Positions 44,791 through 48,596 of a stretch of DNA of 64,000 nucleotides are shown here, in pieces; the first letter of the stretch is position 1; each line of letters begins with the position of its first letter. The position numbers and the translations under genes are program-made. The notes under the pieces are model-generated. The model saw only the letters and a program-made list of their open reading frames with translations. It searched no databases and was not told where the DNA came from. The stretch is from an uncultured Lachnospiraceae bacterium. GTDB taxonomy: Bacteria; Bacillota; Clostridia; Lachnospirales; Lachnospiraceae. The DNA lies in NCBI GenBank assembly GCA_947652735.1, contig CANTEG010000011.1, forward strand, positions 1 through 64,000, given 5' to 3'.

Positions 44791-44802
44791 AAGAGGAAAC
44801 GA

Positions 44803-44847
44803 ACACGATTTTTGTAATATCCATATATTGCAAAAATCGTGTTTTTT
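44803..44847 (+). terminator. terminator after the unknown membrane protein
   Basis: ACACGATTTTTGTAATAT pairs with a near-perfect complement ending CAAAAATCGTGT, followed by TTTTTT. Confidence 0.85.
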
Positions 44848-44908: not shown

Positions 44909-44973
44909 TTATTTCGTATAGTTTTACTTTGGTTTACATAATTTAATACACACAAATTATGAGGAGAGATAGC

Positions 44974-47022
44974 ATGAAATATAATAGAAAAATTAAAAAG
45001 AGTGTACATATTTTTTTAGTTATAATTTTATTTTTTGTTTCCGCATGTCCGTGGAATTCTAATATTCATTCAAGTGCTGCCGAGACAGGAGTTACAACGG
45101 ATTCGCTTAATTTCAGGTCAGGGGCAGGGACAAGCTATGCAAATGTGAAAGATGCAAATGGGAACAGTATCATTCTGCCCGTTGGCCAGGAAGTAGAAAT
45201 ACTGGATACAAAGAAAGGCTCTGACGGACTTACATGGTATTATGTTTCAACAAAATATAACAATAAAACGTATAAGGGATACCTTTGGGATCAGTATGTT
45301 ACCAAAAAGAATTCAGGAACAACGAGTGACAAATTACAGAATAATTCTGTCTATCCCGTGTCGAATGGATATATGACAGGCATTTCTCCAAATACGAAGG
45401 CAGATGCATTTATTACAAATTTAAGGCTTGCAAAAGCAACGATAAAAAAATCAAACGGTAAGGAACAGACAGGACTTGTTGGTACGGGAAATGTTGTTTC
45501 TTATGAGGGAAGCAGTGCAGAGATTGTAATTTATGGTGACGCAAACGGAGACGGTGAGGTTGGAATTGCAGATTTGGTATATCTGAAAAAGCATATTTTA
45601 GACAAGTCAAAACTAAAAGGCGCATATTTTACGGCTGCTGATATTGATAAAAATAGTCAGATTACAGTTGCCGATTTAGTATACTTAAAGAAGCATGTAC
45701 TTGGAATTGAAGAAATCAAGCAGGACGGAACAAGCTCAGATTCAAATGGCGGCGGTGACGAAACCGGTGACTTTGAGGAGGCACTCGCTGCTGAGAAATT
45801 CCCTGAAAGTTATAAGGATATGCTTAGGGTGATTCACAAACTACATCCTGACTGGCAGTTTAAGGCAGTACATACAGGTATTACATGGGATACACTGATA
45901 GCAAACGAGAAAGCGCAAAAGGTGAATGGTGTGGCAGTTGTAAAGAATACCGTGTGGACATCGTCCCTTTATCCGCACTACAACTGGCGTTCAACAAGTG
46001 TGGGATACAACTGGGCAACCGATAAATGGACAGCCTTTGACGGCAGTATATGGTTTGCAGCATCAGATGACCTTGTGGCATATTATATGGATCCTAGAAC
46101 ATATTTGTATGAAAATTATATATTTGCTTTTGAGAGTCTGTCTTATCACAGTGGAACGCAGACAAGGAAAGGTGTTGAGGCAATACTGAAGGGAAGTTTT
46201 ATGTATAATACGGTACCGCCGGGAGAGACACAAAAATACTCAGAAATTATTATGGAAGCAGCAAAGAAGGCAAATGTAAGCCCATATCATCTTGCATCTA
46301 GAATAAGACTTGAAATGGGTACGACAGCAGGTGGTGCGGCAACCGGAACAAGTACAACGTATCCGGGCATATACAATTTCTACAATATAGGTGCTACGGA
46401 TGGTGCAAATGCATTGATGAACGGACTGAAATGGGCAGCTACGCCAGGCTCATATGGAAGACCTTGGAATACTGTTAAAAAGTCCATTGTAGGAGGTGCA
46501 CAGTTCCTAGGCACTTCATATATCAATGTGGGACAGGATACTTTGTATACGCAAAAGTTTAATGTTACAAATAAGGGAAGTCTGTTTTCACATCAATATA
46601 TGACCAATGTTCAGGCACCTTCGACAGAGTGCATTACGAACTATAATGCATATAAGAATAATAATATTTTGGATACTGCAATGGTATTTAAGATACCTGT
46701 GTATTTAGATATGCCTGAAAAGGCAGTGACAAGACCGGCAGATTCAGGAAATCCGAATAACTGGCTTAAGTCACTTACGGTAGGAGATTATGACCTTACA
46801 CCGAAGTTTGCCGTAAATAAGACAACGGAATATTCGCTTACAGTACCAAAGAACGTCAAGAGCGTTACAATATCCGCAAAACCAGTGAATGGTTACGCGA
46901 CGGTTTCGGGTGCAGGAACAAAATCTCTTGATACAGGCAATAATGTATTTAAGATTACCGTTAAGGCACAAAACGGTAATAAGAGAACATATACCTTAAA
47001 TATTATAAGGAGTACAAAATAA
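44974..47022 (+). CDS. secreted endo-beta-N-acetylglucosaminidase with SH3, dockerin and cadherin-like domains
   Basis: A 682-residue exported peptidoglycan hydrolase. Order: signal peptide (1-37), bacterial SH3 domain (about 40-112), type I dockerin (about 186-248), LytD-like glucosaminidase domain (about 270-565) with the likely catalytic E447 in RLEMG, and a C-terminal cadherin-like beta-sandwich (about 590-680). The dockerin has both calcium loops: DANGDGEVGIAD and DIDKNSQITVAD, each followed by LVYLKKH. The start at 44974 follows GAGGAGAG. The next gene encodes a membrane protein with a cohesin-like module, the expected dockerin receptor. Confidence 0.9.
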   Translation: MKYNRKIKKSVHIFLVIILFFVSACPWNSNIHSSAAETGVTTDSLNFRSGAGTSYANVKDANGNSIILPVGQEVEILDTKKGSDGLTWYYVSTKYNNKTYKGYLWDQYVTKKNSGTTSDKLQNNSVYPVSNGYMTGISPNTKADAFITNLRLAKATIKKSNGKEQTGLVGTGNVVSYEGSSAEIVIYGDANGDGEVGIADLVYLKKHILDKSKLKGAYFTAADIDKNSQITVADLVYLKKHVLGIEEIKQDGTSSDSNGGGDETGDFEEALAAEKFPESYKDMLRVIHKLHPDWQFKAVHTGITWDTLIANEKAQKVNGVAVVKNTVWTSSLYPHYNWRSTSVGYNWATDKWTAFDGSIWFAASDDLVAYYMDPRTYLYENYIFAFESLSYHSGTQTRKGVEAILKGSFMYNTVPPGETQKYSEIIMEAAKKANVSPYHLASRIRLEMGTTAGGAATGTSTTYPGIYNFYNIGATDGANALMNGLKWAATPGSYGRPWNTVKKSIVGGAQFLGTSYINVGQDTLYTQKFNVTNKGSLFSHQYMTNVQAPSTECITNYNAYKNNNILDTAMVFKIPVYLDMPEKAVTRPADSGNPNNWLKSLTVGDYDLTPKFAVNKTTEYSLTVPKNVKSVTISAKPVNGYATVSGAGTKSLDTGNNVFKITVKAQNGNKRTYTLNIIRSTK

Positions 47023-47031
47023 ATCAAGGAA

Positions 47032-47072
47032 GCACCTGATGGTGCGCAGGTCATCAACCTTTGGTTGATGAC
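47032..47072 (+). repeat. two hairpins between the glucosaminidase and cohesin genes
   Basis: GCACC-TGAT-GGTGC (47032-47045) and the perfect 10-bp stem GTCATCAACC-TTT-GGTTGATGAC (47050-47072). No T tail follows, so they look like mRNA processing or stability elements rather than a terminator. Confidence 0.65.
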
Positions 47073-47096
47073 AATAATTAGTAAGGAGTTTATATA

Positions 47097-48596
47097 ATGA
47101 CAAATTTGCGTAAAAGCATCATATTATATATTGTTCTTTTCATGGCAGTCATGCTGCATCCGCTTGGTACGATGGCGGCGAGCGGAAGTGTGTCTGTCGG
47201 TGTGTCTTCATCAACCGTATCAGAGGGTGATACGGTTTCCGTGACCGTAAGTATATCAGCTGACGAGGCAATTGGATATGGTGTGGCAATCTCTTATGAT
47301 TCAGGGGTACTGGAATATACGGGAGGTGCTGACGGCGGCGGTGGAGGAACTGTAACGCTTGTTTCTGAGGGAGATGGAGCATCTGCGGCGTTTTCAAGAA
47401 CAATTTCATTTAAGGCTATTTCAAACGGAAGCTCATCAATCACTGCCTCCTCATATGCAGGAGGCTTATTTGGTTATACCTCAGGTGACATATCAACCTC
47501 CTACGGCTCATCTTCCGTGACGGTTGCAGAGCCTGTTACAACCGAGGCACCTACTACGCAGGCAACCACGGCACAGACAACAGAACAGACCACTGAAGGA
47601 ACAGAGCATACTACGGAAACTGCTACTACAGAGGAGACGACAGAGGATGTGGGAGAGCCTGCTGCAGTGATTGACGGAAAAGAATATTTATTTATTTTGG
47701 ATAAAGAAGTAGAGGGAATACCTGAGACTTACAAGGCTATCGACATGAAATATAAGGAGTGGACAGTGACAGCATTTGAGTCACCTTCCAAAAAGCTGCT
47801 CCTTGTGTGTCTTCGTGACAGTGAAGGCAGCACTGGCATATATATTTACGACAAAAAAGATGATGCATTTACGCCATATAAGGAATACATGGCAAATGAA
47901 AATAAATATGTGATTCTTGCGTTTCCTGATGATATAGAGGTGGCTGATGGTTTTAAAAAGGCTACCCTAAAGCTTGATAATGAAAAATACGATGCTTATA
48001 TGTTGGAGGGAACTAAGATTTATCTTATATATGCCATGAACATAAATGAGGAGGCAGGTCTTTACCTGTATGATTCATCGGAAAAAACATTTATGGCTTA
48101 TATGGGTGATGAGATTTTGGCAGCACAGGAAAAAACAGTGGATACAGTTACTGAGGCAACGATTACCAATGCAGTGCCGGAAAATATAACACTTACGGAT
48201 GACGGATGGTTTGGCAGGGACATGCTCATTTATTATCTGATTGGTGCGGGGGCGCTTATTCTTGTTTTTCTTATTATAATAATTGTTTTGGCAGTGAAAA
48301 ACGGAAGTAAAAAAAGAGAAATAGAAGAGCTTGAAAAAGATTTAAAATATGTATCAAAGGAAAAATCTGACAAAAAAGCGAAAGAAAATAAAAATGACAA
48401 AGAAGCTGCAAAAGATAAAAGTTTTGACAAGGAAAATGTAACCCAAAAGAACGAATCTGATGACAAGGAAAATGCAGAACAAAAGAATGAACCGACTGAT
48501 AAGGATAATATTGTAGTTCCTGAAATTGCTTTGCCAATAATAAAAAAACCAAAAGAGGTAAAAACAGAGAATAACGAAAACAAGATTGACGGATAA
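47097..48596 (+). CDS. membrane-anchored cohesin-like protein
   Basis: A 499-residue cell-surface protein. Signal peptide (1-27), a cohesin-like beta-sandwich (about 28-147; VSVGVSSSTVSEGDTVSVTV opening, then ISYDSGVLEYTG and ISFKAISNGSSSI strands), a Thr/Glu-rich linker (about 148-185), an extracellular domain of unknown type (about 190-340), one membrane helix (about 378-402) and a charged, coiled-coil-like cytoplasmic tail of about 95 residues rich in Lys, Glu and Asp. It follows the dockerin-bearing glucosaminidase by 74 bases. Most likely it docks that enzyme at the membrane. The tail suggests a cytoplasmic contact as well. Confidence 0.8.
   Translation: MTNLRKSIILYIVLFMAVMLHPLGTMAASGSVSVGVSSSTVSEGDTVSVTVSISADEAIGYGVAISYDSGVLEYTGGADGGGGGTVTLVSEGDGASAAFSRTISFKAISNGSSSITASSYAGGLFGYTSGDISTSYGSSSVTVAEPVTTEAPTTQATTAQTTEQTTEGTEHTTETATTEETTEDVGEPAAVIDGKEYLFILDKEVEGIPETYKAIDMKYKEWTVTAFESPSKKLLLVCLRDSEGSTGIYIYDKKDDAFTPYKEYMANENKYVILAFPDDIEVADGFKKATLKLDNEKYDAYMLEGTKIYLIYAMNINEEAGLYLYDSSEKTFMAYMGDEILAAQEKTVDTVTEATITNAVPENITLTDDGWFGRDMLIYYLIGAGALILVFLIIIIVLAVKNGSKKREIEELEKDLKYVSKEKSDKKAKENKNDKEAAKDKSFDKENVTQKNESDDKENAEQKNEPTDKDNIVVPEIALPIIKKPKEVKTENNENKIDG

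Follow-up and report, generated by a model that had tools for sequence, protein, structure and literature searches.

The window analysed here, the first 64,000 nucleotides of contig CANTEG010000011.1 from an uncultured Lachnospiraceae bacterium (assembly GCA_947652735.1), contains two adjacent genes whose products probably form a dedicated complex, a SagB-like glucosaminidase being bound via its dockerin to a membrane protein that carries a cohesin-like module. Judged from sequence comparison, we give this reading a probability of about 65%. The secreted glucosaminidase would use its type I dockerin to bind the cohesin-like module carried by the neighbouring single-pass membrane protein, and would thereby be kept on the outside of the membrane, at the site where new glycan strands emerge. 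If SagB-SpdC of Staphylococcus aureus is a guide, the likely role would be to place or limit glycan cutting, and thereby the release or length setting of new peptidoglycan. The dockerin–cohesin contact may be one exchangeable docking mode in a wider family of enzyme–membrane protein pairs, other members of which have no dockerin. Binding, calcium dependence, membrane placement, the role in peptidoglycan release, and any role of the tail of the membrane protein are what we infer here.

Both reading frames are intact, and the coordinates of the two genes in the initial annotation are confirmed (Table 1). The start codon ATG of the enzyme at position 44974 is preceded by a Shine-Dalgarno-like AGGAGA, and the longest open reading frame (ORF) begins at 44959. 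The gene of the membrane protein starts 74 bases downstream of the enzyme gene. The enzyme is composed of a signal peptide (read from sequence), a weak SH3-like module, a small module, the dockerin, the glucosaminidase domain, and a cadherin-like module. The membrane protein has a signal peptide, the cohesin-like module, a Thr-rich stalk, an unnamed two-repeat domain, a membrane helix, and a charged tail. The SH3-like, cadherin-like, and unnamed two-repeat modules are additions to the earlier description. The best match of the enzyme's family profile in the Protein Data Bank (PDB) is 6u0o_B (4.1e-25), titled LYZ2 domain-containing protein, which we take to be SagB; the invariant Glu of the glucosaminidase domain, presumably the catalytic one, aligns with a Glu of this chain. 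The SagB model NF052642 matches at 4e-15 with 55.7 bits, below its cut-off of 425, and the Pfam glucosaminidase model is absent among the enzyme's matches at E<=1. With its aligned Glu, the enzyme is assigned by these alignments to the SagB glucosaminidase family.

The dockerin of the enzyme is a complete two-loop type I dockerin, as the initial annotation had it. It matches PF00404 over profile positions 1–57 of 57 with 39.1 bits against a cut-off of 22.9; loop 1 is canonical, and loop 2 has N and S at positions 5–6. The description of the next gene product as a membrane protein with a cohesin-like module, a Thr-rich stalk, one helix, and a charged tail holds as well. PF00963 gives no match with the full membrane protein or in the search of its own genome, and the 124-residue module alone reaches 0.0016 and 19.1 bits, below the cut-off of 24.1. 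Of 60 aligned family members, 53, including the window's, match PF00963 at E<=0.01 (best 1.5e-9), and relatives such as those in genomes G180 and G002 exceed the cut-off. The family profile of the module matches solved cohesins, the closest being those of the ScaB adaptor scaffoldin (3l8q_A, 3.1e-13), which are part of cellulosome scaffoldins, unlike the window pair. The NagJ cohesin 2jh2 follows at 2.6e-5, and antibody domains appear only from about 0.05 on. These profile comparisons establish the homology of the module to cohesins. Cohesin–dockerin pairs are chiefly known for holding together cellulosomes, which have several cohesins and many dockerin enzymes. The 2.77-Mb, 40-contig draft genome has one PF00404 match over the cut-off, besides a weak one at 0.3, and one full-length cohesin-like module, besides three partial matches (0.0016 to 0.37). 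The genome thus holds one of each, side by side, as claimed earlier, and does not have the makeup of a cellulosome.

Dual-binding dockerins keep their contact residues in both halves, while asymmetric dockerins of Ruminococcus flavefaciens bind in one mode (PMC5429695). The contact residues in solved R. flavefaciens complexes are Ile39, Ser40, Val43, Met46, Gln47, and Ala/Ser50, and also residues 44 and 54 (PMC5429695). We compared the two halves in 57 of 72 parsed dockerins of the family, using shuffles that do not preserve relatedness. Agreement (kappa) between the halves peaks at positions 18, 14, 17, 21, and 10 (0.91, 0.90, 0.83, 0.73, and 0.70), followed by positions 11 and 13 (0.60), and is low at positions 2, 4, 7, 16, and 19 (0.21, -0.05, 0.28, 0.13, and 0.27). 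The spacing of the symmetric positions (0, 1, 4, 7, 8, 11) is that of the contact residues in PMC5429695; this mapping by spacing is our own, and our numbering is one lower than that of the paper, which calls Ile39 position 11. The pair at positions 10–11 is the same in both halves in 31 of the 57 dockerins, compared with 2.9 in shuffles. In the window dockerin, five of the six positions 10, 11, 14, 17, 18, and 21 are identical between halves, and the sixth is I/V. The window dockerin thus has internal symmetry at the presumed cohesin-contact positions, and would be of the dual-binding type. Such symmetry in a one-to-one system is notable because the dockerins of Clostridium thermocellum that recruit single enzymes to the surface and that of the C. 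perfringens pair are reported to bind in a single mode (PMC5429695). The residues at the symmetric positions vary by lineage (Ala-Leu, Ile-Lys, Val-Tyr, Leu-Phe, or Tyr-Lys), as expected if they fit a varying lock. Mean contact symmetry, with neighbours assigned by script, is 0.88 for the 47 dockerins next to a cohesin and 0.63 for the other 10 (p 0.007).

The dockerin and the cohesin-like module also depart jointly from those of the nearest named relatives, the Lachnospiraceae assemblies L123 and L124. The enzyme domain of the window is 77% and 76% identical to theirs, respectively. Their dockerins are C-terminal, 86% alike, and without the small preceding module, whereas the window dockerin precedes the enzyme domain and is 36% identical to them, its best identity being 50% (L106, L180). 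The window cohesin is 41% identical to the L123 and L124 cohesins, with loop lengths as in L066 and L134. In a regression on enzyme identity (136 pairs of 17 loci), the mean residuals of the window are -29.0 for the dockerin and -9.7 for the cohesin, both the lowest of the 17, and -2.5 for the unnamed domain, the third lowest. In the unnamed-domain tree, the window clusters with L123 and L124 (99/98), while the cohesin tree (24 chosen loci) places it with L106 and L092 (90/53) and not with L123 and L124; forcing the latter grouping costs 15.4 log units (p-AU 0.07). The VYLKKH of the window dockerin corresponds to LYLKRH or LYIKRH in the dockerins of L106 and L092. When the enzyme and unnamed domains are controlled for, the contact residues of the dockerin follow cohesin identity among the 17 loci of the window clade (r 0.389, p 0.0125), and follow neither of those two domains. 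Dockerin and cohesin both depart from the sisters, and the enzyme and unnamed domains do not, which we take as moderate evidence, resting largely on the window itself, that dockerin and cohesin changed together in this lineage. The half symmetry and the joint departure are indirect signs that the two may recognise each other.

The pair is not unique to the window. Among 200 genomes of the family, 102 match the membrane protein at E<=0.001, a few of the matches being short or with stops, and 102 match the enzyme at E<=1e-10. We fetched 60 regions selected by the membrane protein. A second sample, selected by the enzyme, has 80 titled loci with 81 enzyme ORFs, of which 6 were dropped for short flanks, leaving 75 places. 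The survey of adjacency suggested in the initial annotation bears the pairing out, as the cohesin protein adjoins the enzyme at 56 of the 75 places, 29 with a dockerin and 27 without a detected one. The other places have a dockerin without a cohesin neighbour (5) or neither (14), and there is no strong association between dockerin presence and cohesin adjacency in this sample. Among 136 unique enzyme domains, 107 have a cohesin neighbour, with domains at contig ends still counted, and nine changes on their tree are needed to account for dockerin presence. The gene pair is steadier than the dockerin, since only 29 of the 56 adjacent-pair enzymes carry one and its presence changes nine times. 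PF00404 matches at E<=0.01 in 79 of the 200 genomes and exactly once in 54; in 29 of these 54, the match lies in the gene that immediately precedes the cohesin gene, as shown by coordinates for 25 and deduced for 4 (G016, G017, G055, G096; dockerin by profile, one match in the genome). One of the 29, G113, has no detected enzyme domain in that upstream gene. In 19 of 21 chosen such genomes, neither the family profile nor PF00963 finds a further cohesin, and G061 and G129 have one more each.

The membrane protein also occurs without the enzyme. In 19 of the 60 regions it has no SagB-like enzyme gene upstream, as counted from the region maps with L086 included and L093, which has a dockerin protein upstream, excluded. 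In L080, the upstream gene encodes a different type of glucosaminidase, one with ChW repeats, and L087 has genes for a glycosyltransferase and two LytR-CpsA-Psr proteins upstream; similar genes elsewhere were recognised by their ends only. In L089 and L098 (genomes G181 and G158), the cohesin membrane protein follows look-alikes of purM, purN, and purD (by size and ends only), with no enzyme. These two genomes hold 29 and 25 dockerin matches, and the cohesin membrane protein could serve many dockerin proteins there.

A number of these results weigh against a dockerin–cohesin contact as the bond of the pair. First, 27 of the 56 enzymes with a cohesin neighbour have no detected dockerin, and 15 of the 19 solo loci come from genomes in which PF00404 has no match at E<=0.01. 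Second, positions 20, 9, and 15, which are outside or only partly in the contact set, have intermediate half agreement (kappa 0.53, 0.47, and 0.42), and helix packing may add to a symmetry that was compared with shuffles ignoring relatedness. Among the 10 dockerins scored as lacking a cohesin neighbour, L093 does have a cohesin protein, yet only three of six symmetric positions; L213 has a relative of the cohesin protein, L169 stops at a contig edge, and the other seven score 3, 5, 4, 6, 3, 0, and 2 of 6. Third, the window cohesin is near both types, 46% to L065 and 45% to L126 and L064 of the sister type, and 48% to L066 and 47% to L069 of the other; the cohesin residuals of L132, L129, and L127 are nearly as low as that of the window; and its place in the cohesin tree has the support values given above (90/53, p-AU 0.07). 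Without the window, the clade correlation falls to r 0.224 (p 0.10, n=16), and at the 29 loci outside the clade, contact residues do not follow the cohesin (r 0.076, p 0.14). When all 46 loci are taken together, the correlation is 0.171 for contact and 0.150 for non-contact residues, and the contact residues follow the enzyme domain even more closely (0.238). The initial annotation had proposed a dedicated latch. Cohesin homology, one-to-one copy number, adjacency, and the indirect signs of recognition speak for such a latch in the window, but that it defines the pair is not supported, as 27 of 75 places are paired without a detected dockerin and 19 of 60 regions are enzyme-less. The same two counts imply that the membrane protein also has further uses or makes further contacts.

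In a broader, tentative reading, possible though not probable, Lachnospiraceae and some other Clostridia share a widespread wall-enzyme receptor system with the enzyme outside, a cytosolic partner inside, and an exchangeable docking code. The single-pass receptor would consist of cohesin, two-repeat domain, helix, and tail, with a DFIDLD-type end in many members. The code would consist of matched dockerin–cohesin types, and perhaps of an SNVTIVP-type C-terminal peptide in some dockerin-less lineages.

The partners may instead cooperate mainly via other contacts, namely cadherin-like modules, the unnamed domain, or the enzyme domain, with the dockerin–cohesin contact as an add-on in some lineages. 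This would explain the adjacent pairs without a detected dockerin, and agrees with the large share of enzyme domains having a cohesin neighbour while dockerin presence changes repeatedly on the tree. The window membrane protein, however, lacks the cadherin-like module that most relatives carry, and the dockerin symmetry and joint departure suggest that the contact matters in the window; we consider this alternative unlikely. It is more improbable still that the cohesin-like module serves generally in wall binding or adhesion, that the two genes are neighbours because they share a wall operon, and that the partner of the dockerin is something else. That the window genome has no other full cohesin-like module argues against it, as do again the symmetry and joint departure, against which stand the solo relatives, often beside LytR-CpsA-Psr and glycosyltransferase genes (L087 tested, others by ends) and mostly in genomes without a PF00404 match, and, from one of the 19 enzyme-less regions, a membrane-protein relative (L074:7289-8767) in which an SH3-like module replaces the cohesin. 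An assembly artefact, suggested by the 40-contig draft and by the dockerin lying between SH3-like and enzyme domains in no other enzyme listed in the compared loci, is hardly credible, because both frames are intact and unusual modules (the dockerin and the cohesin) are interleaved with ordinary ones (the enzyme and unnamed domains), which would require several in-frame false joins.

The dedicated complex proposed here can be compared with known systems. The non-cellulosomal pairing of Clostridium perfringens, which we assume to be linked to NagJ, resembles it as a cohesin–dockerin pairing outside cellulosomes, and the NagJ cohesin is among the profile matches; we know of no membrane partner for this pairing. 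Its interaction is of single mode (PMC5429695), whereas the dockerins here mostly keep their internal symmetry. In S. aureus, a glucosaminidase of the same family, SagB, is bound by the membrane partner SpdC (LyrA), which sets product length; newly made peptidoglycan is released by the complex of the two (PMC12272431). SpdC belongs to the CAAX protease family and is an integral membrane protein (PMC12272431), whereas the partner here combines a cohesin-like module with one membrane helix besides its signal peptide, and the window enzyme, unlike SagB, carries a dockerin. The adjacent partner has no Pfam match to the CAAX protease family at E<=1, the search being for this protein and not for an SpdC homologue elsewhere in the genome. 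The simplest reading would be that the window pair does the same job as SagB-SpdC with a different clamp. Surveys of cellulosome bacteria describe proteins that likewise have a single cohesin and a C-terminal membrane helix, with some partners called unclear (PMC11557425). Those proteins are treated as anchoring scaffoldins, and up to 39 dockerin proteins accompany them in Lachnoclostridium sp. MSJ-17 (PMC11557425), whereas the window genome has one dockerin, on a peptidoglycan enzyme. Butyrivibrio proteoclasticus B316 is described as without cohesin components (PMC2914790). No such pair appears in the titles and abstract openings covered, or in the consulted passages of PMC2914790, PMC12272431, PMC11557425, and PMC5429695, a coverage that leaves out most subscription journals.

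If the complex is real, a common one-to-one cohesin–dockerin pair would place a peptidoglycan enzyme at the membrane and have a role in cell-wall growth. It would be a second answer to the problem solved by SagB-SpdC, and its relatives would give studies of specificity a natural set of docking pairs, both matched and exchanged.

Table 1. Features of the gene pair in the window.
Feature	Position	Strand	Basis
Terminator-like hairpin, 20 pairs, T-rich tail, between preceding gene and pair	44801..44844	+	Consensus scan
Secreted SagB-like glucosaminidase with internal dockerin, 682 aa	44974..47022	+	ORF, Pfam/NCBIfam, profile, translation
SH3-like module of enzyme	45097..45300	+	PF08239 0.0019, below its cut-off; profile from relatives
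Small module before dockerin; beta-type fold guessed from sequence	45370..45528	+	Comparison with relatives
Type I dockerin, two loop-helix halves	45532..45702	+	PF00404 8.7e-10; solved dockerins matched; half-to-half symmetry
Glucosaminidase domain with invariant Glu	45769..46758	+	Family profile, alignment
Cadherin-like beta sandwich	46771..47010	+	PF12733 6.2e-11
Membrane protein with cohesin-like module, 499 aa	47097..48596	+	ORF, homologue search, translation
Cohesin-like module	47178..47549	+	Family alignment, PF00963, profile against solved cohesins
Thr/Glu-rich stalk	47541..47651	+	Read from sequence
Unnamed extracellular domain, repeat 1	47652..47888	+	Alignment; repeat comparison
Unnamed extracellular domain, repeat 2, homologous to repeat 1	47904..48116	+	Profile-profile
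Membrane helix	48231..48302	+	Hydropathy
Charged tail, ~97 residues, with NIVVPEI	48303..48593	+	Sequence, relatives' tails

The unnamed domain of the membrane protein is composed of two homologous repeats of ~70 residues (profile-profile probability 98.9, E 1.7e-17), and in many dockerin-less pairs one repeat alone is detected. A Pfam scan of 54 cohesin-plus-domain sequences reveals no family of its own for this domain, and a PDB sequence search with it finds nothing convincing (best 0.079). It occurs at E<=1e-6 in 24 of 291 genomes of the class, five of the 24 belonging to the window's own family. The membrane helix lies near residues 382–400, and the tail is probably on the cytoplasmic side because a Lys/Arg cluster follows the helix. 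A DFIDLD-like motif, picked after viewing the sequences, is within the last 12 residues of 37 of 61 membrane proteins, compared with ~1.5 expected from shuffled tails. By type, this end is present in all 19 solo proteins, 9 of 12 dockerin-less pairs, and 9 of 30 dockerin pairs. It is absent from the membrane proteins of the window and the closest relatives fetched; in its place, the window clade shows a stretch of the I-x-[VIF]-P type, and the window itself has NIVVPEI. There is no sign of a wider family of proteins sharing this tail, since in 28 genomes the pattern occurs at 13 places (9 cohesin-gene ends and 4 elsewhere) and a reversed control pattern at 14.

In the enzyme, the small module before the dockerin is common to many relatives, L123 and L124 excepted. 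A lipoprotein reading, based on VSAC at residues 22–25 of 682, is unlikely because these two relatives have no Cys there. Dockerins of relatives are mostly enzyme C-termini and not separate ORFs, and that of L102:5093-7213 is located within the glucosaminidase domain. Seven of the twelve dockerin-less enzymes in the 60 fetched regions (L075, L077, L088, L094, L096, L110, L120) have a short, strand-like C-terminal peptide of the SNVTIVP type that follows Gly/Ser/Pro-rich stretches and might replace the dockerin as a docking handle. The terminator consensus scan found 3 sites in the window, with 2.4 expected in shuffles. Between the two genes, a hairpin of ten pairs with a three-base loop and no T run was found by eye at 47050-47072.

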